Part shown: one piece after another, positions 19,850 through 32,466 of the stretch
Layout: each line of letters starts with the position of its first letter
Numbering within the stretch: position 1 is the stretch's first letter
Assembly: GCF_026191375.1 (NCBI RefSeq)
Contig: NZ_JAODTL010000032.1
Location: forward strand, 62,001-126,000
Origin: Marinomonas pontica
GTDB lineage: Bacteria; Pseudomonadota; Gammaproteobacteria; Pseudomonadales; Marinomonadaceae
Direction: 5' to 3'
DNA length: 64,000 bases
Program-made: the position numbers and the translations under genes
The notes under the pieces: model-generated
The model's database searches: none
The model's input: the letters and a program-made list of their open reading frames with translations, nothing else
Told to the model about the DNA's origin: nothing

Positions 19850-20644
19850 ATGAAACGAGTTTTGATCACTGGCGCTGCTGGCAATTTAGGCCATGTAATG
19901 CGTCCTCGCTTAAATGATTGGGCGACAGATATTCGCCTTTCTGACATTGCCAAAGTAGACGATTTAAAAGCGAATGAACAGTTTGTACAGTGTGATCTAG
20001 GGGATGCCGCTGCGGTGATGTCCTTAGTTGAAGGTTGTGATGCTATTGTGCATTTTGGCGGTGTTTCAACCGAAAATACATTTGACAGTATTTTAAATGG
20101 AAACATACAAGGGACTTACAATTTATATGAAGCGGCTAGAAAAAATAATGTAAAGCGTATCTTTTTTGCTAGTTCCAATCATGTAGTTGGCTTTCATGAT
20201 AGAGAAACGCTTTTAGATGCCCACTGTGCAATGCGACCTGACAGTATGTATGGGTTATCGAAATGCTTTGGTGAGCTATTGGCACAGTATTATTACGATA
20301 AATTTGGCATTGAATCGGCGCTAGTTCGCATCGGTTCTTGCTTCCCTAAACCGCGTAATCGTCGCATGTTATCGACTTGGTTAAGTGAAGGGGATTTGTC
20401 TGATTTAATCAAAAAAGTATATGCCGCAGATCGATTAGGTTGCACGGTTATATATGGTGTATCTGATAACCCAAGTACTTGGTGGGACAACCGTCATGCC
20501 AAATTTATAGGTTGGACACCTAAGGACTCTTCTGTGGTATTTGAAAGTGAAGCGTATTTACAAGAAGAGCAAGCGGATCCAAATGACCCTGCAGTCCGTT
20601 TTCAAGGAGGCCCATTTGCCAGTGCCGGACACTTTGAAGACTAG
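19850..20644 (+). CDS. udh: uronate dehydrogenase
   Basis: Short-chain dehydrogenase of the extended type that oxidises D-glucuronate or D-galacturonate with NAD+ to the aldarolactone. The Rossmann motif is VLITGAAGNLGHVM at the N-terminus, the catalytic serine lies in FFASSNHVVGFH near residue 107, and the YxxxK pair is in MYGLSKCFGELLA near 131-143. The stretch MLSTWLSEGDL, the WWDN motif and the C-terminal DPNDPAVRFQGG resemble the Agrobacterium enzyme as I know it. An upstream ATG (19832) exists, but AGGAG five bases before 19850 decides the start. It follows the TRAP permease by 34 bases. Confidence 0.93.
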   Translation: MKRVLITGAAGNLGHVMRPRLNDWATDIRLSDIAKVDDLKANEQFVQCDLGDAAAVMSLVEGCDAIVHFGGVSTENTFDSILNGNIQGTYNLYEAARKNNVKRIFFASSNHVVGFHDRETLLDAHCAMRPDSMYGLSKCFGELLAQYYYDKFGIESALVRIGSCFPKPRNRRMLSTWLSEGDLSDLIKKVYAADRLGCTVIYGVSDNPSTWWDNRHAKFIGWTPKDSSVVFESEAYLQEEQADPNDPAVRFQGGPFASAGHFED

Positions 20645-20770
20645 CGTGTCGAGCTAGTTAATTTCCGATTAAATCATTTTTCCATAAGGTTTTTTGCTCA
20701 TTTATTGGGCAGGGCATCATGTTGCCAAAATAAGGTCTTTTTACCAAAAAATAACAAAAAGGATGACATT

Positions 20771-21681
20771 ATGACACTTTCTGTCGAGCGTATTCGTGCT
20801 TCTCTTAGTGATGGTTTGCTTTCGTTTCCCATTACTGATTTTGATGAAAAAGGCCGTTTTAATCCAGAAACCTACAAAGCGCGCATTGAATGGTTTATTG
20901 AGCATGGTGTGTCATCTGTTTTTGTTGCAGGTGGGACGGGTGAGTTTTTCTCTTTGGACTTAGCCGAATACCATCAGATTGTTAAAATTGCCGTAGAGAC
21001 CGTGGCAGGGAGAGTTCCTGTGATTGCCAGTGCAGGACGCAGTGTAGCTGAGGCAAAGGTGTTTGTTCGCGCTGCTGAACAAGCAGGTTGCGATGGAATT
21101 CTCTTGATGCCTCCATTTTTAACGGAGTGCCCTGAGGATGGCATTATTGAGTACGCCTCTCAGATTATGCGAAGTAGCCCGATTCAGTTCATTTATTATA
21201 ACCGTGGTAACGGTGTTTTAGGTGCAGAGAATATCAAACTATTAGCGGACAATAATCCAAATTTAATCGCGTTAAAAGATGGTGTAGGCAACATCGCAGC
21301 TCTCAATGATACGATTAAAACAGTGGGGGATAGGCTGGTTTATATCGGGGGGTACCAACTGCAGAGATCTTTGCAGAGGCCTATCTTTCGATTGGTGTAA
21401 ATACCTATTCTTCTGCCGTATTTAACTTTATGCCTGAAATGGCAAATCGTTTTTATAAGGCATTACGAGGAGGAGATAAGAAGGTAGTGACCTCTATTAT
21501 TCAAGATTTCTTTATTCCATTCTGCCGTTTGCGTGATGAGAAAAAAGGCTATGCGGTAAGTCTTATTAAATCGGGCGCGATAGAAATTGGCCGATCTGCA
21601 GGTACCGTGAGAGCACCTCTGACGATGCCGACGATTGATCAAGAAGCTCGACTTAAAGCACTGATTGACGTAAATAAATAG
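20771..21681 (+). pseudogene. kdgD: 5-dehydro-4-deoxyglucarate dehydratase, copy 2 (single-base frameshift)
   Basis: Paralogue of the kdgD at 10.0 kb; the two proteins agree over most positions and share YYNRGNG and the Schiff-base segment IALKDGVGN near residue 169. The frame breaks at the G run 21347-21352 (six G). A seventh G gives LVYIGGVPTAEIFAEAYLSI and continues to the stop at 21679-21681, for a 303-residue product. Its T-rich site, which is broken in copy 1, is intact here, so the two copies are broken at different places. The ATG at 20771 follows AAAAAGGATGAC. Confidence 0.9.
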
Positions 21682-21717
21682 TTTTTGCTGTTATCGTGGC
21701 GCTTACAGGAGGTTAGT

Positions 21718-22668
21718 ATGTCGGAAATAGATGTGTTGGTGATGGTTCCTTGTCGACCAGAGCAATTGAAAACATTAGAACAGCGCTACCGTTTGCATCG
21801 TTTTGATCTGGCTGATGAATCAGGAAAAGAGGCCATGCTCTTGACGCATGGCGCGGCGATTAGAGCAGTAGTGACGACGCATACAGGTGGTTTTACTGAA
21901 GCATTGTTGGATCGTTTGCCGAATGTAGAAATCGTCGCCGTGGCAAGTGTGGGCTACGACACAGTGTGTGTGGATGCCTGTGCAAAACGCGGTATTCCTG
22001 TAACCAATACGCCAGATGTATTGACCAATGACGTGGCGGATATGGCACTTATGTTGCTATTAACAACGGTTCGCCGTTTATTAAATGGCGTGAACTGGAT
22101 ACAAAATGGCCATTGGCAAAGTAAAGGTATGATGGCGTTGAACACCAGCTTAACAGGCAAACGTGTTGGCATTGTTGGGCTTGGGCGTATAGGGAAAGCC
22201 ATTGCGGTACGCTGTGAAGCTTTTGGTTTGCAGCCATGCTATTACGGTCGTCGTGAGCAAAAAGACGTATCTTATCCATGGTTTTCTGACTTGGAAAAAT
22301 TGGCAGAACAGGTTGATGTAATGATTGTGGCGGTTCCGGGTGGTGCGGATACTCAAGGTCTCATCAGCAAGAAAGTTCTTTTGGCGCTGGGCAAACAAGG
22401 CTACTTTATTAACATCGCGCGAGGGTCAGTTGTGGACGAAAATGCGTTAATAGACGTTTTGGTGTCTGGAGAAATAAAAGGCGCTGGCTTGGATGTTTTT
22501 GTCGATGAACCAAATGTACCGGAGGCATTATTGACGCTGGATAATGTGGTTCTTCAACCGCATTGCGCAAGTGGTACGGAAGAAACCCGAAGCGCGATGT
22601 CGCAGTTAGTGGTGGACAATTTGAATGCACATTTTACCGGGCAGTCTTTGTTAACGCCGATACGTTAA
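21718..22668 (+). CDS. D-isomer 2-hydroxyacid dehydrogenase
   Basis: NAD(P)-dependent dehydrogenase of the glyoxylate/hydroxypyruvate reductase group, 316 residues. The nucleotide-binding motif is VGIVGLGRIGKAIA near residues 146-159. The catalytic Arg, Glu and His are in NIARGSVVDE, VFVDEPNVPE and LQPHCASGTEETRSAM. AGGAGG six bases before the ATG at 21718 decides the start over the in-frame 21685. It ends the uronate cluster. A role in reducing a keto-acid by-product or a tartronate-type intermediate is possible but not shown. Confidence 0.87.
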   Translation: MSEIDVLVMVPCRPEQLKTLEQRYRLHRFDLADESGKEAMLLTHGAAIRAVVTTHTGGFTEALLDRLPNVEIVAVASVGYDTVCVDACAKRGIPVTNTPDVLTNDVADMALMLLLTTVRRLLNGVNWIQNGHWQSKGMMALNTSLTGKRVGIVGLGRIGKAIAVRCEAFGLQPCYYGRREQKDVSYPWFSDLEKLAEQVDVMIVAVPGGADTQGLISKKVLLALGKQGYFINIARGSVVDENALIDVLVSGEIKGAGLDVFVDEPNVPEALLTLDNVVLQPHCASGTEETRSAMSQLVVDNLNAHFTGQSLLTPIR

Positions 22669-22726
22669 TTTATGGCGTACTGACGTTAGGTTAGTGCTTA
22701 TTCGTCTACTCGAAATTGGATTTAAC

Positions 22727-22759
22727 AAACCGTGATTCATTTGAATCACGGTTTTTTTT
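22727..22759 (+). terminator. rho-independent terminator closing the uronate cluster
   Basis: A 13-bp perfect stem, AAACCGTGATTCA (22727-22739) with TGAATCACGGTTT (22742-22754), followed by a run of eight T. It lies between the dehydrogenase and the convergent oxygenase gene. Confidence 0.88.
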
Positions 22760-22786
22760 ATACCTCGAAATGGGGTGGCTAGGCGA

Positions 22787-23626
22787 TTAGATTACGCCTA
22801 ATTCCACTAAGCGTTCATGCAAGTAGCTTTTCGCCGTATGGCGGTCGGACAACACGACTTCTGGTTTTGGGTGCAGGAACAACGGCAAAGAAATGCGTGA
22901 TTTGGTTTTGTCAGCGCCTTCTGGGTTGATCACACGATGAGAAGTCGATGGAAAGTAGCCGCCTGATGCTTCTTGTAACATGTCGCCAATGTTGACGATT
23001 AGGGTGCCAAAATCGCAGGGCACATCCATCCAGGAACCGTCTTTGGCTTTGACTTGCAGGCCTGGCTCATTCGCCGATGGCAAAATCGTCAATAGGTTGA
23101 TGTCTTCGTGAGCCCCAGCTCGAATGGCCCCCAACTCTTCATCACCTTTTAATGGTGGATAATGCAATACGCGAAGCAGCGTTTGGTCACTGCCATCCAC
23201 CATGCTTGATAACGGCTGTGAATAATGTTGTGCGACGGCTTCTGGAGAGTGTGCTTCTACCCAAGCGAGCAACTCGGACGCAAGTGTGTTGGCTTCAGAA
23301 TAATACTGTGCCAGTCGCGTTTTTTTGTCTGCTGGGCATTGTCCCCAAGGGTAGTAGTGAAAATATTCTTTGATGTCTTTTTTGGTATGGCCTTTCGCGG
23401 TTTCAGAGACATCCGGTGGAAAAAAACCGTCTTGAGTGCCGACGTTGTAGCGATAATCGTATTTGGATTCGCTGTCGAAAAAGCTTTGCCAGTCTTGATA
23501 AATGGCGCTGACCAGTTCTTTTTTGATGGGATGGTTTTTTAGTACGCCAAATCCCGTTTCACGTAGGGATTTGACGAAATCAGCCGCGGCGGTTGAGCTT
23601 GTGTAGTCAATGGCTTGTAATTGCAT
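22787..23626 (-). CDS. 2-oxoglutarate/Fe(II)-dependent dioxygenase, isopenicillin N synthase-like
   Basis: Non-haem iron oxygenase of the IPNS/DIOX_N-2OG-FeII family, 279 residues. The iron triad is His173 and Asp175 (in AGAHEDINLL) and His230 (in STSHRVINP); Arg244 and Ser246 (KSRISLPLF) should bind 2-oxoglutarate. The N-terminal DIOX_N region covers about residues 1-100. The substrate is unknown; relatives act on small molecules. It is transcribed on its own, convergent with the uronate cluster. Confidence 0.87.
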   Translation of the reverse strand: MQLQAIDYTSSTAAADFVKSLRETGFGVLKNHPIKKELVSAIYQDWQSFFDSESKYDYRYNVGTQDGFFPPDVSETAKGHTKKDIKEYFHYYPWGQCPADKKTRLAQYYSEANTLASELLAWVEAHSPEAVAQHYSQPLSSMVDGSDQTLLRVLHYPPLKGDEELGAIRAGAHEDINLLTILPSANEPGLQVKAKDGSWMDVPCDFGTLIVNIGDMLQEASGGYFPSTSHRVINPEGADKTKSRISLPLFLHPKPEVVLSDRHTAKSYLHERLVELGVI

Positions 23627-23722
23627 GATTGTTTCCTATGGGCCAAATAATGGCCATTTTGTCTGAGGTGCATCGTTTGATAATAGACGGATGCGGTGGT
23701 TTTTCTAGAACAAAATAGGCGG

Positions 23723-23878
23723 TTACGAAGACCAGCCACTGTGGAAAAAATAGCGTAAATCGACCGTTTCCGCTTGGTAGTGCTGCTGCCACTGGGTCAA
23801 ACTCATTACTGAACGACGCACTAATGCCTCGGCTTTTGCCGATTCATTGGGTGTGTTCAGAGATGAGCATAATGTCAT
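23723..23878 (-). CDS. possible small hypothetical protein (51 aa)
   Basis: A short minus-strand frame upstream of the oxygenase. It begins MTLCSSLNTPNESAKAEALV and ends DLRYFFHSGWSS. The composition is plausible for a protein and the gene is co-directional with the oxygenase, but there is no recognised family. An extended frame reaches 23917 into the 8-bp tandem repeat. It may simply be a chance frame. Confidence 0.3.
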   Translation of the reverse strand: MTLCSSLNTPNESAKAEALVRRSVMSLTQWQQHYQAETVDLRYFFHSGWSS

Positions 23879-23900
23879 GGTGTGTTTTCTACTTTTCAAA

Positions 23901-23932
23901 ATGCCGCAATGCCGCAATGCCGCAATGGCGGA
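23901..23932. repeat. 8-bp tandem repeat, three exact copies plus one degenerate
   Basis: ATGCCGCA is repeated at 23901, 23909 and 23917, with ATGGCGGA at 23925. An 8-base unit changes reading frame when copy number changes. It lies in the 562-base stretch between the oxygenase start (23626) and yqgE (24189), which otherwise holds only the weak small frame and no convincing promoter. Confidence 0.85.
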
Positions 23933-24188
23933 ATGTGTTTGTTGTGCTAGTTTACTGCGTGATATGCCGATTTTGAATAGATTCGGTAATAATTTGTATT
24001 TTGGGGTGGGTTAATTCTCAGTATGTCCTATACTGCTTGGGTCGGCTGTGTACATTTGCCGTCTTCTTTTGCACTTCTCTACAGTCTATATATCGTTTTG
24101 TGTTGGCGAGTTCTGTCTTGGTTCAAGTACTTCTTATGTTTACGTAATCAACGCGATCTTTGCGTTGTCATCCATTTAAAGAGGGCAC

Positions 24189-24761
24189 ATGACTATGAAT
24201 ACATTTTTCGATTCGTTTAAAAATCATTTTTTAATTTCAATGCCACATCTCGACGACCCCCATTTTGAACACACGGTTATTTATCTTTGCGAGCACACCA
24301 AAGCGGGTGCGATGGGGATTATTATTAATCGCCCATCAAATGTCGATTTCACAGAATTAGCGAATCACTTAGGCATCCAAATTGACAGCCCGAGCTTGGT
24401 GTCTGAACCCATTTATACGGGAGGCCCCGTTGAAGCGGAGCGAGGTTTTATTCTGCATACGGCGGATAAAGTCTGGAGTAATACACTGCGAGTAACAGAC
24501 GACGTGTCTTTGTCTGCGTCACTGGAAGCGCTGGAAGATATTGCGCAAGATAAAGGCCCCGATGCTTTTCGAATCACGTTAGGTTGTGCGGGTTGGGATG
24601 CTGGTCAGTTGGAAACGGAAATAGCCAATAATGATTGGCTGGTTTGTGAAGCGGATTTAGACGTATTATTCTACACACCAAGTGACATGCAATTTACCGC
24701 AGCGACTCGCGTCTTGGGAATTGATATGACAAGACTTTCACCGGATATAGGACATGGTTAA
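24189..24761 (+). CDS. yqgE: UPF0301 protein YqgE/AlgH
   Basis: Conserved small cytoplasmic protein of unknown biochemical role. The family opening NHFLISMPHLDDPHFEHTVI is followed by YLCEHTKAGAMGIIINRP near residues 31-48, then the typical PIYTGGPVEAERGFILH and LGCAGWDAGQLE. The length of 190 is normal. AAAGAGGG lies before the ATG at 24189; a second ATG is two codons later. Its stop overlaps the ruvX start (TAATG), the usual gammaproteobacterial pairing. Confidence 0.93.
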   Translation: MTMNTFFDSFKNHFLISMPHLDDPHFEHTVIYLCEHTKAGAMGIIINRPSNVDFTELANHLGIQIDSPSLVSEPIYTGGPVEAERGFILHTADKVWSNTLRVTDDVSLSASLEALEDIAQDKGPDAFRITLGCAGWDAGQLETEIANNDWLVCEADLDVLFYTPSDMQFTAATRVLGIDMTRLSPDIGHG

Positions 24762-25231
24762 TGACAGCGTCAATCTCGACAGAAACGCCTAGCAATGACA
24801 ATCACAAGCCCAATACTGCTCGTTCAGTATTGGGCTTTGATTTTGGCACCACGCGCATGGGAGTGGCCATTGGTCAAAGTATTACCGGCACCGCGCGTCC
24901 ATTGGATCCATTAAAGGCCAAAGATGGTATTCCGAATTGGGATGAGATCACGCGTATTGTGACCGAATGGAAGCCAGATGCCTTTGTGGTGGGCTTGCCA
25001 TTGGATATGGACGGTTCAGAAAATGAGATGTGTCAACGGGCACGTAAATTTGCGAAACGATTACATGGACGTTTTAATCTTCCATACCATATGATGGACG
25101 AGCGGTTGTCGTCTTATGAGGCGAAAGGGCATGTGATGGCTCGGGGTGGAAATCGCAATTTCAAAGAGAATTCGGTCGATGGTTTGGCTGCCCAAATGAT
25201 AGTAGAGACATGGTTTGCAGAGTCACATTAA
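24761..25231 (+). CDS. ruvX: Holliday junction resolvase-like / pre-16S rRNA nuclease RuvX (YqgF)
   Basis: RNase H-fold protein that matures the 5' end of 16S rRNA in E. coli. The first catalytic aspartate is in SVLGFDFGTTRMGVAIGQ near residues 23-40, the VVGLPLDMDGSENEM motif lies near 77-91, and the last acidic strand region is MMDERLSSYEA near 111-121. It has about 156 residues, with an N-terminal extension of some 20 polar residues before the fold. It is translationally coupled to yqgE and 55 bases before pyrR. Confidence 0.94.
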   Translation: MTASISTETPSNDNHKPNTARSVLGFDFGTTRMGVAIGQSITGTARPLDPLKAKDGIPNWDEITRIVTEWKPDAFVVGLPLDMDGSENEMCQRARKFAKRLHGRFNLPYHMMDERLSSYEAKGHVMARGGNRNFKENSVDGLAAQMIVETWFAESH

Positions 25232-25286
25232 GCACATCAGTTTGACTCGCGTTTTTTACGAATTTATTAGCAAGGTTTGATCCATA

Positions 25287-25784
25287 ATGAAGTTAGATTT
25301 AGAACATTCTCTGGCGTCGATGAAAATGCAACTGGCGGCGTATTGCGAGCAAAAAAACATCGAAGACGCCATTGTGGTTGGTATTCATACAGGGGGTGTT
25401 TGGGTGGCGGAGCGTTTGATGTCTGCGGTGCCAACCAATGAGCCTCTCGCGACGCTGGACATTACTTTTTACCGTGACGATTTTACCAAAGCGGGATTAA
25501 ACCCAAAAGTGAACCAAACTTTGTTGCCAGCGATTGAAGATCGGCACGTGATTTTAGTAGACGATGTGCTTATGTCCGGTCGTACCATTCGTGCCGCGAT
25601 GAATGAAATATTCGACTTTGGTCGCCCTGCGAGTGTGACCTTGGCGATTCTGTATGATCTTGGCCAACATGAGCTTCCGATTGCAGCGGATATCGTTGGT
25701 GAGCGCTTAACGCTTAATCCTGAGCAAAGGGTCAAGTTGACTGGGCCAAAACCACTGAATGTTTCTGTGATTGATGCCCATTAA
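25287..25784 (+). CDS. pyrR: bifunctional pyr regulator / uracil phosphoribosyltransferase PyrR
   Basis: Phosphoribosyltransferase-fold protein that in many bacteria senses UMP/UTP and controls pyr genes. The PRPP loop is LVDDVLMSGRTIRA at residues 90-103, and the early VVGIHTGGVWVAERL lies at 30-44. The length of 165 is slightly short of Bacillus PyrR. It lies just upstream of pyrB, as in Pseudomonas, where PyrR acts on transcription rather than through a Bacillus-type RNA site; which applies here is not visible. Confidence 0.93.
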   Translation: MKLDLEHSLASMKMQLAAYCEQKNIEDAIVVGIHTGGVWVAERLMSAVPTNEPLATLDITFYRDDFTKAGLNPKVNQTLLPAIEDRHVILVDDVLMSGRTIRAAMNEIFDFGRPASVTLAILYDLGQHELPIAADIVGERLTLNPEQRVKLTGPKPLNVSVIDAH

Positions 25785-25867
25785 TATGCGTAACAAGCCT
25801 TTATTTTTTGTTGAACACATACGACAATTAACCGATGGATAAGATTGACGATACGGCGGTTAGCAGA

Positions 25868-25984
25868 ATGAACTTCCTCCATACTATGTGGAAGGGTAAC
25901 CGTTTAGTGTCATTAATGCCCGGTTGCAGTGTGTCTGTGCCGGGCATTTTCCTATCTACACTTCCTATTTTAAATAGAGAATGA
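25868..25984 (+). CDS. putative pyrB leader peptide (38 aa)
   Basis: A short frame beginning MNFLHTMWKGNRLVSLMPGC and ending FLSTLPILNRE runs straight through the hairpin at 25915-25948 and stops 37 bases before pyrB. This is the arrangement of the enterobacterial pyrL leader, in which translation through the attenuator prevents termination when UTP is low. The ribosome site is weak (no clear GGAG before the ATG), and the sequence is unlike PyrL. Existence as a translated peptide is inferred. Confidence 0.4.
   Translation: MNFLHTMWKGNRLVSLMPGCSVSVPGIFLSTLPILNRE
25915..25950 (+). terminator. candidate attenuator upstream of pyrB
   Basis: AATGCCCGG (25915-25923) pairs with CCGGGCATT (25940-25948) around a 16-base loop, followed by only TT then CC. 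The stem is strong but the T tract is short. It sits in the 237-base leader between pyrR and pyrB and inside the putative leader frame, as expected for an attenuator. Confidence 0.55.
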
Positions 25985-26021
25985 CGACCATGTCGTCGTT
26001 GCAGTTTGAGGAAAGCAAACC

Positions 26022-27025
26022 ATGATGCGATCCGAACCTCGGGCATTACAGTTAAATGAACACGGCCAGCTAAAGCATTTTTTAACGTTGGATGGATTAG
26101 ACAAAACCATTTTGACGGAAATTTTGGACCGAGCCGACTCCTTTCTCTCGATGGGAGAACAGTCTGTTAAGAAAGTTCCTCTGCTACGCGGTAAAACCGT
26201 AGTCAATTTATTTTTTGAAAACTCTACCCGTACACGTACCACGTTTGAGCTTGCCGCTAAGCGTTTATCCGCAGACGTCATCAATTTGAACATTGAAACG
26301 TCGGCAACGTCCAAGGGGAATCTTTGCTGGATACGTTGAAAAACTTAGAAGCCATGCAGAGTGATATGTTCATTGTTCGCCATTCAGACAGTGGCGCGGC
26401 ACATTTTATTGCCGAACACTGCACGCCGAATGTGGCCATCATTAATGCGGGTGATGGACGTCACGCTCACCCAACGCAAGCGATGCTAGACATGTTAACG
26501 ATTCGCCGTCATAAAGGCCGCTTCGATGGTCTAAAAATCGCGATTGTTGGCGACATTCTGCATTCACGAGTGGCGCGCTCTCAGCTGCAAGCATTGACTA
26601 CCCTAGGGGTGAGTGATGTGCGTTTGGTGGGTCCGAAAACCTTAGTGCCGAGTTTCTTCGCAGAAATGGGTGCGACCATTTGTCATGACCTAGAGGCTGG
26701 TCTAAAAGACGTGGATGTTGTGGTGATGCTACGACTTCAAAAAGAGCGTATGAAAGGCGCGTTATTGCCGAGCGAAAGTGAGTTCTACCGTTTGTATGGT
26801 TTGACGGAGGAGTCTTTATCATGGGCGAAGCCTGATGCGATCGTGATGCACCCAGGTCCTATTAACCGTGGCGTTGAGATCTCCTCTGACGTGGCCGATG
26901 GTAAGCATTCAGTGATTTTAGACCAAGTAACCAACGGTATTGCAGTGCGCATGGCGGTATTGTCTATGGCCATGAGCGGTCAGCTGCAAAGTGATGAATC
27001 GCCAGCGACGAAGGACGAAGAATAG
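26022..27025 (+). pseudogene. pyrB: aspartate carbamoyltransferase catalytic subunit (single-base frameshift)
   Basis: Catalyses carbamoylation of aspartate, the first committed step of pyrimidine synthesis. The carbamoyl-phosphate motif is [20 protein letters not shown] near residues 65-84; [27 protein letters not shown] and [13 protein letters not shown] follow. The frame stops at 26339 because the G run 26315-26318 has four G; a fifth gives [17 protein letters not shown] and continues to 27025, for about 334 residues as in Pseudomonas. No pyrI follows; instead pyrC' lies one base after, as in the Pseudomonas-type holoenzyme. A biological null is unlikely unless the strain is a pyrimidine auxotroph. 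Confidence 0.93.
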
Positions 27026-27026
27026 T

Positions 27027-28304
27027 ATGAAATTACGTATTCAAAATGGTCGTTTGATCGACCCAAGCCAAGACATCGATGCGATAACGGATCTGTTTAT
27101 CGACAACCAAAAGGTGGTCGCGATTGGCGAGGCGCCTGAAGGGTTTGAAAATGCCGACGTAGTGGACGCTACGGGTCAGTGGATTTTGCCTGGCTTAGTG
27201 GATCTTGCGGTGGCATTGCGTGAGCCAGGACAAACGCAAAAAGGCAGCATTGCGACAGAAGGCCGTGCGGCTGTTTCGGGTGGTGTGACGACGTTGGTTT
27301 GCCCGCCAGACACTCGTCCTATTGTGGATACGCCAGCGGTGGCGGCGCTGATTCAAGACAAAGCCGATGATGCCGGTATGGCGAATGTGTTCCCATTGGG
27401 AGCGTTAACGCAAGGGCTGGAAGGCGCGCAATTGAGCAATATGGTGGCGTTAACCGAAGCAGGATGTATCGCATTGTCGAATCATCGTCACCCGATGGCG
27501 AGCACCAAGGTGTTGTCTCGTGCGCTTGAATATGCGGCGACCCATGATTTGTTGGTGGTGTTCCACCCTGATGAATCCAGCTTATCTGAAGGCGGTTGTG
27601 CGCACGAAGGTTTGATGTCGACCATGCACGGTTTGGCAGGCATTCCAGAAGAAGCGGAAACCATTGCGTTAATGCGTGATTTATTGCTGGTGGAAAAAAC
27701 CGGCGTACGCGCGCATTTTGCTCGTTTGTCTTGTGCGAAATCGGTTGAGATGATTGCTGATGCTAAAGCTTCTGGGCTGGATGTTACGGCGGATGTGGCG
27801 GTGCATAACTTATTGCTTAATGATCAAGTGTTGAGTGGTTTTGATGGCCATTATCATGTGCTGCCACCTTTGCGCAGTGATGAAGACCGATTGACTCTGA
27901 TTGAGGGGATAAAAGCTGGCGTTATTTCCGCCATTTGTTCCGACCATCAGCCGCATGAAAAAATGGCCAAAACAGCGCCGTTCGCGGCAACAGAACCTGG
28001 TATGGCCAATGTCGAAATTTTGCTTCCTTTGGCGATGCAGTTAATGGACGAAGGCGATTTGGACTTCTCCACTGTTCTGACGTGTTTAACATCGGGCCCT
28101 GCTGCGTGCTTTGGGTTGGAGGCTGGTTCATTGTCCGTGGGCAGTTTCGCCGACTTCATGTTGTTTGACAGTACGGTTCGTTGGACGTGGTCTTACGAAG
28201 GGCGCAGAACCAAAGGTCATAACTCTCCTTATTTTGGCGAAGAGTTTGTTGGTCGTGTTATGTCAACCTACATCTCTGGTCAACGCGTATACCAAGTGGC
28301 GTAA
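27027..28304 (+). CDS. pyrC': non-catalytic dihydroorotase-like protein PyrC'
   Basis: Dihydroorotase homologue of the Pseudomonas PyrC' (PyrX) type, which is a structural partner of aspartate carbamoyltransferase rather than an enzyme. The usual HxH zinc motif after the first strand is lost: LPGLVDLAVALREPG has Ala61 and Ala63 where the histidines belong. The rest of the family pattern is kept (CPPDTRPIVDTPAV, CAHEG, SDHQPHEKMAKTAPFAATEPG). It has 425 residues. ATG 27027 lies one base after the pyrB stop; an in-frame upstream start at 26991 would overlap pyrB. Confidence 0.9.
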   Translation: MKLRIQNGRLIDPSQDIDAITDLFIDNQKVVAIGEAPEGFENADVVDATGQWILPGLVDLAVALREPGQTQKGSIATEGRAAVSGGVTTLVCPPDTRPIVDTPAVAALIQDKADDAGMANVFPLGALTQGLEGAQLSNMVALTEAGCIALSNHRHPMASTKVLSRALEYAATHDLLVVFHPDESSLSEGGCAHEGLMSTMHGLAGIPEEAETIALMRDLLLVEKTGVRAHFARLSCAKSVEMIADAKASGLDVTADVAVHNLLLNDQVLSGFDGHYHVLPPLRSDEDRLTLIEGIKAGVISAICSDHQPHEKMAKTAPFAATEPGMANVEILLPLAMQLMDEGDLDFSTVLTCLTSGPAACFGLEAGSLSVGSFADFMLFDSTVRWTWSYEGRRTKGHNSPYFGEEFVGRVMSTYISGQRVYQVA

Positions 28305-28316
28305 GCCAACCCATAA

Positions 28317-28346
28317 GGCCGAGCTGAGTTTTTCTTGGCTCGGTCT
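28317..28346 (+). terminator. possible terminator after pyrC'
   Basis: CCGAGC (28319-28324) pairs with GCTCGG (28338-28343) around a T-rich loop, followed by TCTTACTATT. The T tract is poor, so termination may be partial. Confidence 0.45.
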
Positions 28347-28420
28347 TACTATTCCTTTACTTTTCTTATTAGGCCGTTAATCTAGTTTGAATTACAAATT
28401 ATTATGGTTTTAATTTCTAT

Positions 28421-29527
28421 ATGCCTACCGACTCACTAAACGCATTGCTAGAGCAGCAGCAAGCCTTGCGGTCTCGTATTGCATATCTTGAGAAAGAAAG
28501 AGATTTTATAAAAAGTTTGTACAGCAACATGCCTCAAGTGCTCCAGTCTATTTCGAAGGGCGCTTTGCTTGGTACCTTGCTAGATGGCTTTAAAATCAAA
28601 TTACAAGCGCAATTGTCGAGCGCATATTGTTTGTTTCTTGTGTGCGATAAAGATTGTTTGCAGTGGCGCTTGCAATATACCGATGGCATTAATGACGCTT
28701 TATTAAATTCAAATAGCCTATTGGGCATAGTGCCCAAAGCCTTGGTTACATTTGCCGCGAGCCCTTCTTGTCCGAAGCGACATGACAGCAGTATTCAAAA
28801 CGCATCTGGTTGGGAGCATTGGTCGTCATTCATTAAAAAACACGCCTTCACCGATGTGTCCATGGTCAGTGTGTCTGATGGTCAAGGCGCGATCTATTTG
28901 ATGTTGGCATTTCAGCGTGAAGAGCATCGTTTAGAAAGTGAGTTGATGACGCTGGCGTTAGACGCGTATTCCTCTTGGCTCAGCGCTGTGTTCGAAAGAG
29001 AGAAAGCAGACTATTTACTATTGGAAGACAGTCACCGAGACCCATCCACGGGCTTGTTGCGTCGATACAGTTTTGAAAACAGTTTTGGGATTGTGTTGAA
29101 AGATGCGAGACGTCATTTTTTACGTGCCGCGGTGCTGTCCATTAAATTGTTATCAAACTCGACGATCAAAGAGGAAGAGCTAAAGGCGTTGGCGGATGTG
29201 ATGCAGGAAACGGTACGAGACAATGACCTTATTGCGTATTTTGGTGAGCGCGAGTTAGTGATGGGCATTCGTATTCAACATTTGACCGATGCTGAAATTG
29301 TTGCGGCAAAATTGTTGAAATCGTTGCATTCTTCTGCGTTTACAAACAACAAATTAGCGCACGATGGTCTGTCTATTGGTATCGCTTTTTATCCGGAACA
29401 CTCTTCTCTTGATACTCTTTATCAGGCGGCATCAATGGCGGCTAATTCCTTGAAGAATGTATCAGGCTATCGCATTGAATTTCATGGCAAATATTATAAA
29501 TCGAGTGCCGATTTTTATTCTATATAA
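28421..29527 (+). CDS. GAF-like sensor protein with degenerate GGDEF domain
   Basis: A 368-residue cytoplasmic protein. An N-terminal coiled coil (about residues 5-35) leads to a GAF-like region (about 40-190) and a C-terminal GGDEF fold: DPSTGLLRRYSFENSF near residue 207, and SIGIAFYPEHSSLDTLYQAA at the usual late strand. The active-site loop reads YFGERELVMG in place of GGDEF, so cyclase activity is unlikely. It could bind c-di-GMP or a partner, or act through the GAF domain. It occupies the place where many relatives have pilT, between the pyr genes and yggS. Confidence 0.75.
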   Translation: MPTDSLNALLEQQQALRSRIAYLEKERDFIKSLYSNMPQVLQSISKGALLGTLLDGFKIKLQAQLSSAYCLFLVCDKDCLQWRLQYTDGINDALLNSNSLLGIVPKALVTFAASPSCPKRHDSSIQNASGWEHWSSFIKKHAFTDVSMVSVSDGQGAIYLMLAFQREEHRLESELMTLALDAYSSWLSAVFEREKADYLLLEDSHRDPSTGLLRRYSFENSFGIVLKDARRHFLRAAVLSIKLLSNSTIKEEELKALADVMQETVRDNDLIAYFGERELVMGIRIQHLTDAEIVAAKLLKSLHSSAFTNNKLAHDGLSIGIAFYPEHSSLDTLYQAASMAANSLKNVSGYRIEFHGKYYKSSADFYSI

Positions 29528-29616
29528 ATGGCTTTGGTAAGCCGTTTTGGTGTGTTTAAACAATATTGTGGTTGGTGTCCATCTGGCACTTGAGTAATAA
29601 AGAGGTGTAGTGGTTC

Positions 29617-30345
29617 ATGGGTGTTGACGTAAAAGATGAGGATAGAAAGGCGATAGCGGCCAATTTGGCCTTGGTGTCTCAGCAAATAGCGTTGCTTGAG
29701 CAGCAATATCATCGAATCGCTGGCAGTGTGCGTTTATTGGCGGTCAGCAAAACGAAGCCTGTTGAAGCGCTGGAAGCGGCGTATCATGTAGGTCAGCGGG
29801 CGTTTGGTGAAAACTACGTACAAGAAGCTGTGGATAAATACCACGCTCTATCTCATTTGACAGACATTGAATGGCACTTTATTGGCCCGATTCAGTCGAA
29901 CAAGTCTCGGCTCATTGCACAGACCATGGCGTGGGTGCATTCGGTTGATCGGGAAAAAATTGCGCGCCGCCTGAGTGAGCAGCGTCCGGACAATTTGCCG
30001 CCATTGAACGTGTGTATCCAAGTCAATATCAGTGGTGAAGAAAGCAAAGCGGGCGTGTCTTTGTCCGAGTTGGACGACATGGTGGCACTGGTTAATCATT
30101 TGCCAAATATACAGCTTCGAGGGCTGATGGCGATTCCCGCCCCTCAGGTTGATCATGACGCACAATGTCGAGTGTACGAACCTTTACAGCAGGCGTTCAT
30201 TGAATTATCCAAATCTGATCGCATGATAGATACCTTGTCTATTGGTATGTCGGCGGATTTGCCCGCTGCCATCGCATCTGGTAGCACCATGGTACGTGTT
30301 GGCACGGCTATTTTTGGTGCGCGCGATTATTCGGCTAAGGCTTAA
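29617..30345 (+). CDS. yggS: YggS family pyridoxal phosphate homeostasis protein
   Basis: PLP-binding TIM-barrel protein that manages free PLP and amino-acid balance. The PLP lysine is in LLAVSKTKPVEALEAAY near residue 47, followed by FGENYVQEA, IEWHFIGPIQSNKSR near 87-101, and the phosphate-binding SIGMSADLPAAIASGSTMVRVG near the C-terminus. It has 242 residues, and GAGGTG precedes the ATG. It is followed by proC, the usual partner. Confidence 0.95.
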   Translation: MGVDVKDEDRKAIAANLALVSQQIALLEQQYHRIAGSVRLLAVSKTKPVEALEAAYHVGQRAFGENYVQEAVDKYHALSHLTDIEWHFIGPIQSNKSRLIAQTMAWVHSVDREKIARRLSEQRPDNLPPLNVCIQVNISGEESKAGVSLSELDDMVALVNHLPNIQLRGLMAIPAPQVDHDAQCRVYEPLQQAFIELSKSDRMIDTLSIGMSADLPAAIASGSTMVRVGTAIFGARDYSAKA

Positions 30346-30423
30346 TCGCGTTGATGACATGGTAAACCTAGCAGACGTTACATAATATAAAGTCGCTTGA
30401 AGAATGAACTAAAAGGACACGAA

Positions 30424-31251
30424 ATGACACTAAGTATTGCTTTTATCGGTGTTGGAAATATGGCGAGATCCATTTTCAGTGGTTTGCTTGCGAGTGGGTA
30501 TCCAGCGGAGAAAATCATGGGTACGTCTAGAACGCCAGAAAAGCGTGAGTACTATCAGCAACAATACGGTATCTCCATGTTGGCCGAAAACGAGCAAGCC
30601 GTCAGCCAAGCGGACGTGGTTGTGCTGTGTGTCAAACCTGCGCAAATGCAAGCCGTTGTAGAAGAGTTCGCGGATTATGTCCGTGATGATCAGTTATTTC
30701 TTTCTGTCGCCGCGGGCGTGGAATTAGACGCGCTGGAACATTGGTTAGCAAAACCTGTGGCTGTGGTGCGCAGTATGCCAAATACGCCATCTCAATTGGG
30801 CGTTGGTATGACGGGCTTAATCGCCAACAAACACACTAATGAATCTCAAAAAGAATGGGTGACGGAGCTGTTTGCCAGCGTTGGTAGCTCGGTATGGGTT
30901 GATGACGAAGTACACATGCACACGGTCACGGGATTATCCGGCAGCGCGCCTGCGTATTTTTTCCGCTTCCTAGAGGCCATGATCAAAAGCGCGAAAGAGC
31001 AAGGTTTGGATGAAGAAACCAGCCGTAAATTGGCAAGCCAAGCCATGCTAGGTGCCGCGCGCATGGTGATTGAATTGGATGAGCCGATTGATCAGTTACG
31101 CAAAAACATTACGTCGCCAAAGGGAACCACAGAACAAGCGTTGCTGTCCTTTGAGGCGGCGAATATAGATAAAGTAGTAGGCGATGCGGTATTCGCATGC
31201 GTAGAACGTTCGAAGGAATTGGCGAAAGCTTTTTCCGCTCAGAAAGATTGA
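30424..31251 (+). CDS. proC: pyrroline-5-carboxylate reductase
   Basis: Last enzyme of proline synthesis, reducing pyrroline-5-carboxylate with NAD(P)H. The Rossmann motif IAFIGVGNMARSIFSGLL opens the protein. VVRSMPNTPSQLGVGMTGL and the C-terminal TGLSGSAPAYFFRFLEAM with ITSPKGTTEQAL are diagnostic. It has 275 residues. The frame is open from 30397, but AAAGGA before the ATG at 30424 and the start of the Rossmann strand decide. Confidence 0.96.
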   Translation: MTLSIAFIGVGNMARSIFSGLLASGYPAEKIMGTSRTPEKREYYQQQYGISMLAENEQAVSQADVVVLCVKPAQMQAVVEEFADYVRDDQLFLSVAAGVELDALEHWLAKPVAVVRSMPNTPSQLGVGMTGLIANKHTNESQKEWVTELFASVGSSVWVDDEVHMHTVTGLSGSAPAYFFRFLEAMIKSAKEQGLDEETSRKLASQAMLGAARMVIELDEPIDQLRKNITSPKGTTEQALLSFEAANIDKVVGDAVFACVERSKELAKAFSAQKD

Positions 31252-31268
31252 TTTAAGGATTGTACAAT

Positions 31269-31811
31269 ATGCATTCAGATCCATTTATAATGCTCGTAAA
31301 GGTGATTTGTAACCTTTACTTATTCATTGTTTTGCTTCGTTTGGTGCTGCAATTGACGCGCGCTGATTTTTACAACCCGATTAGTCAGGGTATTGTGAAA
31401 GCCACCAGTCCAATTGTCATTCCATTGCGAAAGGTGATCCCTGCGTTTGGTCGTTTAGACACGGCGTCTTTGGTGTTGGCTTTGTTGGTGCAATTTGTCA
31501 CCGTGGCGTTGGTGGTTGTCATTAGTGGTGCTGTTATTGCGCCAGGGGCTTATGCGATTTATACGGTGGCCGGCACGCTTTACCATTTGTTGGATTTGTA
31601 TTTCTGGGCGATGCTGATTTCGGTGATTCTGAGTTGGGTTGCGCCGGGTGCAAATCATCCTGGCGCTATGCTAGTTGGGCAGATTACCGCGCCTTTATAC
31701 CGAACTTGCCAGCGCTTTATTCCGACGTTGGGTGGCCTTGATTTATCGCCTATCTTTATCTTTTTGGCGATTTCGTTTTTGAAGCAAGTACTGGCTCCGT
31801 ATAGTATTTAG
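31269..31811 (+). CDS. yggT: YggT family membrane protein
   Basis: Integral membrane protein with two tandem YggT repeats, each with two spans. Repeat one includes LRLVLQLTRADFYNPISQGI near residues 21-40 and repeat two ILSWVAPGANHPGAMLVGQI near 118-140. It has 180 residues. AAGGA lies nine bases before the ATG at 31269, favoured over the TTG at 31260. Linked to osmotic tolerance in some bacteria; the exact function is unknown. It directly follows proC. The frequent next gene yggU is absent. Confidence 0.93.
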   Translation: MHSDPFIMLVKVICNLYLFIVLLRLVLQLTRADFYNPISQGIVKATSPIVIPLRKVIPAFGRLDTASLVLALLVQFVTVALVVVISGAVIAPGAYAIYTVAGTLYHLLDLYFWAMLISVILSWVAPGANHPGAMLVGQITAPLYRTCQRFIPTLGGLDLSPIFIFLAISFLKQVLAPYSI

Positions 31812-31840
31812 TCTTTTAGTTAGGTGTATTGCCGTGTCGA

Positions 31841-31855
31841 GGTAACGGTTACCTT
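31841..31855. promoter_or_regulatory. 15-base inverted repeat upstream of coaD
   Basis: AGGTAACGGTTACCT is symmetrical about one central base and is flanked by GTCG and CGAC four to six bases out. It lies in the 169-base gap between yggT and coaD. It could be a small hairpin or a protein site; no known motif is recognised. Confidence 0.35.
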
Positions 31856-31929
31856 GTTGCGACGAATTGAGAACAGGGGCGTATTCCTATATGATGCGAC
31901 CCCTAAACGGGAATTAGAGCGAATAATAA

Positions 31930-32466
<537 letters not shown>

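Follow-up and report, generated by a model that had tools for sequence, protein, structure and literature searches.

A leader between pyrR and pyrB of Marinomonas very likely acts as a transcription attenuator and may be gated by a leaderless reading frame

The leader described here lies in a window of 64,000 nucleotides, the whole stretch of Marinomonas pontica DNA that was analysed. Gene order at the locus is an AlgH-like (DUF179) gene, RuvX, pyrR, a gap of 237 nt, pyrB and a dihydroorotase-like gene, with pyrR directly upstream of the leader and the pyrB ATG at 26022. The features of the locus are as follows.

25287 to 25784, forward strand: pyrR, an ORF for a PyrR-like phosphoribosyltransferase or regulator homologue with a phosphoribosyltransferase domain; its best solved relatives are PyrR proteins
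25800 to 25828, forward strand: promoter-like block, TTTATT, 17 nt, GACAAT; same hexamers and spacing in 46 of 48 genomes
25835 to 25984, forward strand: leader frame of 49 codons; its ATG is at the 7th base after the -10 hexamer, the predicted transcription start, and has no Shine-Dalgarno sequence
25846 to 25912, forward strand: hairpin I, helices 25846-25850/25908-25912, 25855-25861/25898-25904 and 25874-25880/25890-25896, from the consensus fold of 16 leaders
25868 to 25984, forward strand: 38-codon frame of the sequence-only reading, starting at an internal ATG, nested in the 49-codon frame and in the same reading frame
25915 to 25956, forward strand: intrinsic terminator, stem 25915-25929/25935-25948, a short T tract and the common CCTATC
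26022 to 27025, forward strand: pyrB, aspartate carbamoyltransferase, as two overlapping ORFs of 105 and 233 amino acids, with carbamoyltransferase domains in the second part

The pyrB frame of the window is broken once, near 26315, at a short G run. The relative L002 carries a single frame of 334 amino acids, and the one other match in the window's genome is distant (27%); a sequencing error seems likelier than a real loss. Around the pyrB Shine-Dalgarno sequence, at about 26003-26020, we noticed GTTTGAGGAAAGCAAAC, which could fold with the site in its loop; it is exact in 24 of the 48 genus genomes, and by eye the pairing is broken in some others.

We collected the pyrR-pyrB junction from all 48 Marinomonas genomes and found the 237-nt element in 46 of them. 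The remaining two, L018 and L033, lack all of it, from the promoter block to the terminator, and have 52 and 54 nt between pyrR and pyrB. They stand near each other on the pyrR+pyrB tree, together with L030, which keeps the element, a placement that points to one or two losses. The Marinomonas vulgaris record L128 likewise lacks the element.

The promoter-like block keeps its 17-nt spacing throughout the 46 leaders; the upstream hexamer reads TTTATT in 43 and TTTCTT in 3, and GACAAT is present in all 46. An exact-pattern search for the block hit 37 of the 48 genomes, once in each. By consensus score the block is weak, and it was not among the sites listed by the promoter scan. From its hexamers and spacing, the block at 25800-25828 presumably acts as a promoter. 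Conservation at 25799-25828 and in its relatives (CTTTATTTTTT and ACGACAAT) looks to extend beyond an ordinary -35 and -10, and a DNA-binding protein acting at this block is possible.

Outside the genus we found no comparable element at this junction. Of 390 genomes surveyed in the order, 138 had a pyrR match; 18 of them belong to the genus, and from the other 120 we took 52 loci (12 + 40), of which 49 were measurable, L054, L089 and L100 having no pyrB in the stretch. The gap between pyrR and pyrB was 78 nt or less in 46 of these 49 junctions and longer in L053, L073 and L095, and neither the promoter-block pattern nor the terminator pattern occurred in any of the 49. The 268-nt gap of L095, which belongs to another family, holds by eye a long imperfect inverted repeat unlike the Marinomonas element. 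An RNA model built from 16 leaders, searched at E up to 1, found no match in any of these 52 loci; over 293 genomes of the order, at E up to 0.01 and with stricter filters, it matched 14, of which 13 were of the same genus. The genes around the sole outsider, G159 (E 7.6e-4), do not resemble pyr genes, and we rejected this match as a case of the element outside the genus. Searched against the window's own genome at E up to 10, the model returned one copy, before pyrB, and a regulon was rejected on this ground. A literature search over titles and the openings of abstracts, whose coverage leaves most subscription journals outside, gave no report of a pyrB leader in Marinomonas, and a word search of the main text of PMC2965389 gave no pyrB.

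The leader of the window folds better than its shuffled versions (z -2.7, 1 of 200 shuffles as good). The sequence-only reading had described a 9-bp GC-rich hairpin spanned by an open frame that ends at 25984, 37 bases before the pyrB ATG. The frame end is there in the sequence, and so is the helix, AATGCCCGG with CCGGGCATT, pairing 25915-25923 with 25940-25948 ahead of a short T tract. The 9-bp helix is part of a longer stem of 14 pairs, and a second, longer hairpin, which that reading did not mention, lies upstream at 25846-25912.

Both structures were assessed in an alignment of 16 leaders, those most alike among the 25 of the window's clade; nine others, more different in length or sequence, were left out. 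In hairpin I, 94.4% of the alignment cells pair and 10 of 19 pairs have changed on both sides. Its covariation score was reached by 0 of 500 shuffles, and sliding the partners destroyed the covariation, a control in which the structure has an advantage, having been derived from these same sequences. The loop holds no conserved sequence among the aligned leaders, and the hairpin ends 2 nt before the terminator. The terminator stem has 98.7% of its cells paired and is nearly invariant. By eye the terminator is recognisable in all 46 leaders, degenerate in L047, and in the minimum-energy folds of all 46 the terminator hairpin is preceded by one or more other hairpins; the shape of the upstream fold differs in several (L007, L014, L021 and L044, for example), and both hairpins are weak in L047. 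CCTATC directly after the T tract (25951-25956) is common, and ATTTTCCTATC is exact in 31 of the 46 leaders.

We found no conserved antiterminator: in truncated RNAs of the 46 leaders, the partners of the terminator arm were scattered. An upstream partner reached a mean pairing above 0.5 in 15 of the 46, and a local alternative fold is therefore possible in single species. One candidate, formed by the 3' strand of hairpin I and the 5' arm of the terminator, fits the window by eye and was rejected, being broken in L005, L008, L012 and L015. We consider it very likely that the leader is a transcription attenuator.

On the pyrR+pyrB DNA tree the window's clade comprises 27 genomes, 25 with a leader. 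An ATG lies 7 or 8 nt after GACAAT in 24 of these 25, and L009 has ACG there; among all 46 leaders with the block, ATG stands at the 7th base in 28 and at the 8th in 2 more, the transcription start being a predicted one. Read from this position, the frame reaches to 12 nt or less from the TGCCC of the terminator, or passes it, in all 25 clade genomes, and the other two frames come within 15 nt of TGCCC in 1 and 0 of the 25. The frame of the window itself spans the terminator. L125, a close relative of L017 from outside the test set, also has it open. So do L022 and L024, which are not among the 25; these two differ in length at one place only, by 9 nt, which keeps the frame. In both, the frame has about 75-85 nt further to go before it meets the terminator than it has in close relatives of the window, and their leaders are the same as those of the Marinomonas spartinae records L131 and L132.

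We compared the open frame with neutral expectation by simulating leaders on the tree from an open root, with as many changes in each column as were observed. Over 22 codons, a mean of 10.4 of the 25 simulated leaders were open and all 25 were open in 0 of 4000 runs, the simulated sequences being somewhat more alike than the real ones. A pair-aware version, in which base pairs evolved jointly and identity was near that observed, gave 0 of 3000 at each of three rates, and with three roots codons 2-22 were all open in 0, 1 and 1 of 3000. Shorter stretches were less extreme (15 codons, 28 of 4000; 19 codons, 2 of 4000, and in the pair-aware version 7, 1 and 0 of 3000). The frame had been picked after being seen open, from three possible, and the simulations ignore indels; the 22-codon result still stands after allowing for three frames. 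Taken separately, both halves depart from neutral, codons 12-22 with 3-6 of 3000 and codons 2-11 with 48-127 of 3000, the latter indicating that the frame probably begins upstream of codon 12. The peptide shows no conservation: differences at codon positions 1, 2 and 3 number 49, 78 and 65, with no excess at the third, in sums from 17 chosen close pairs that overlap. We conclude that in the window's clade the frame is likely selected to be translated.

These results move the start of the frame. The 38 codons of the sequence-only reading become 49, from 25835 to 25984. A start at 25868 was rejected, since an ATG occurs at codon 12 in only 11 of the 25 clade genomes, the window included, and has no convincing Shine-Dalgarno sequence. 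What had been called a weak ribosome site is really none, and 25835 is the better start, leaderless or nearly so. No Shine-Dalgarno sequence precedes 25835 in the window, and the frame is thus probably leaderless. It is the spacing alone that suggests the start site, use of the promoter and leaderless translation. Leaderless initiation is usually weak in Gammaproteobacteria. The window frame begins MDKIDD, and attenuation through aspartate codons was considered and rejected: these residues vary in the clade and a GAC codon lies inside a helix of hairpin I. No conserved regulatory codons were seen in the clade leader frames.

Beyond the clade the picture differs. The frame at +7 is open in 2 of 6 leaders neighbouring the clade and in 1 of 15 from deep branches; most others stop early or have no AUG. 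In these 15 deep-branch leaders the terminator is reached more often by the other two frames (in 7 and 8), and there is thus no sign of selection on the +7 frame there. Since the terminator and a hairpin persist in the deeper branches mostly without the +7 frame, what was proposed about translation cannot be extended to the genus as a whole, and the earlier proposal of a translated pyrB attenuator stands for the window's clade, where an open frame of free peptide sequence reaches the terminator. In several leaders outside the clade other frames reach the terminator, a few with a Shine-Dalgarno-like stretch (AGGAGG with GTG in L025, AGGAGG with TTG in L048, AGGAG only 2 nt before ATG in L046). 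L036, L040 and L044 have no frame started by ATG, GTG or TTG that reaches the terminator, and in L151, which resembles L044, the frame stops 61 nt short. The clade of L034, L035, L036, L037, L038, L040, L041 and L043 keeps hairpin and terminator, with TTG at +7 and a stop after 6-9 codons. The leader of Maribrevibacterium harenarium is identical to that of L045, which is counted in the window's genus.

The product of the adjoining gene is a clear relative of solved PyrR proteins. Its 35 nearest named relatives are all from Marinomonas, the closest, from M. foliarum, at 94% identity, and the 36th is from Maribrevibacterium harenarium. An Rfam search of 20000-32000 at E up to 1 found no PyrR element, its single match being an unrelated histone hit, and the leader holds no copy of the PyrR loop consensus when up to 2 mismatches are allowed. 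On these grounds a PyrR-binding element in the leader was rejected. The stretch HRELPIRAD of Bacillus and Thermus PyrR reads QHELPIAAD in the window and is variable within the genus; HRELPIR presumably binds RNA, and the change is a weak hint only. PyrR may act elsewhere. The mixed arrangement with PyrR that had been suggested for this locus thus survives as gene order only, with neither a PyrR-binding element nor a conserved loop in hairpin I.

The layout most like that of the window is the pyrBI (pyrL) leader of E. coli, which has the same order of promoter, leader frame, hairpin, intrinsic terminator spanned by the frame, and pyrB. According to passages of PMC10135430 and PMC5021804, abundant UTP there lets the polymerase outrun the ribosome and terminate, and scarce UTP leads to a pause, at which the coupled ribosome prevents the terminator hairpin. 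The distance from frame start to terminator stem is 90 nt in pyrL and 82 nt in the window. The U content from ATG to stem, measured alike, is 33% in pyrL and 28% in the window (20-35% in the 25 clade leaders); PMC10135430 gives 49% for the template used there. The pyrL frame has the Shine-Dalgarno sequence GGGAGG, whereas the Marinomonas frame has none. Hairpin I is longer than its E. coli counterpart and lies 2 nt before the terminator, unlike in E. coli, which leaves little room for a pause between the two. In the part of PMC9291695 that deals with it, the pyrL pause is reported probably not to depend on an RNA hairpin, so hairpin I need not be a pause hairpin. The Marinomonas locus also has pyrR upstream and a dihydroorotase-like gene after pyrB, not pyrI as in pyrBI. 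Moreover, in 8 of the 25 clade leaders, unlike pyrL, the frame stops just before the stem; in seven clade leaders the stop lies 12 nt before TGCCC, and a ribosome would only just touch the stem there.

Two other systems share traits with the leader. The trp attenuator senses tryptophan. A precedent for a leaderless leader frame is trpL of Sinorhizobium meliloti (peTrpL / rnTrpL), as described in part of PMC7298713; in contrast to peTrpL, the Marinomonas leader has neither conserved regulatory codons nor conserved alternative pairing, and its start site is predicted. The PyrR-binding pyr attenuators of Firmicutes, which we take to be Rfam RF00515, likewise have pyrR next to the leader and a terminator before a pyr gene; unlike them, the Marinomonas leader has no Rfam match, no conserved binding loop and no conserved antiterminator.

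We give a slight preference to an attenuator of pyrB that is gated by the ribosome and works like enterobacterial pyrBI (pyrL). A dedicated promoter at 25800-25828 would start an RNA of about 118 nt. Ribosomes would load, with no Shine-Dalgarno sequence to guide them, on the AUG at 25835, at the 5' end of that RNA or very close to it. The sequence of the frame would be free, but the frame must remain open up to the terminator. A ribosome close behind the RNA polymerase would melt hairpin I and cover the base of the terminator stem, and pyrB would be transcribed; with the polymerase running ahead, hairpin I and then the terminator would form and transcription would stop. By analogy with pyrL, low UTP would slow the polymerase and favour read-through. 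Transcription and translation would thus be coupled in the leader, with UTP, again as in pyrL, as the presumed signal. UTP sensing by the pyrL mechanism is plausible but unproven, and so is leaderless entry.

The signal may be other than UTP. A ribosome-gated attenuator could respond to transcription-translation coupling in general, or the frame could mainly shield the leader from Rho; we think this unlikely, if conceivable. The ordinary U content of the leader (20-35%) and the position of hairpin I against the terminator agree with it, and with peptide and codons unconserved the attenuator would respond to any change in the speed of ribosome or polymerase. Yet the position directly before pyrB, the single copy and the pyrL-like layout favour a pyrimidine signal. 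Attenuation independent of translation, with hairpin I as a binding site for a protein such as PyrR or as a folding or pause element, and the clade frame as incidental, would accommodate the covariation of hairpin I, the adjoining pyrR and the branches that keep hairpin and terminator without the frame. It leaves the open frame unexplained, however, and the leader lacks a PyrR match in Rfam, the PyrR loop consensus and a conserved hairpin I loop, while the HRELPIR stretch is variable among the PyrR proteins of the genus and reads QHELPIA in that of the window; we find this account quite improbable.

Regulation of pyrB might also be absent, if the leader were nothing more than a partial terminator behind pyrR, or the gene of a small RNA. 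Its own promoter-like block and strong terminator would indeed yield an RNA of about 118 nt, and L018 and L033 still keep pyrR and pyrB together without the element. We judge this improbable: the body of the RNA varies in sequence, as that of a trans-acting RNA does not; the element occurs nowhere but before pyrB; and the frame stays open.

Returning to the ribosome-gated reading, we propose a more specific form of it, as a tentative suggestion that has somewhat less in its favour than against it. The leader peptide, leaderless and free in sequence, would act as a pure sensor of ribosome position, in a pyrBI-like attenuator that arose within Marinomonas beside pyrR. The transcription start would be the start codon, with both initiations synchronised from the first nucleotide. 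The deeper branches would hold the same hairpin-terminator layout, either lacking the +7 frame or carrying different ones, of which a few have a Shine-Dalgarno sequence in front.

If this is true, pyrB can be controlled by ribosome gating with no Shine-Dalgarno sequence involved, in a genus that has pyrR and in an operon whose pyrB is not directly followed by pyrI. With a leaderless leader frame, ribosome loading would no longer add a variable delay, a point that matters for coupling at the very start of the RNA. The species with the frame, those without it and the two genomes without the element form a natural test series, and the leaders of the deeper branches would let one follow the gain or loss of translation in an attenuator.
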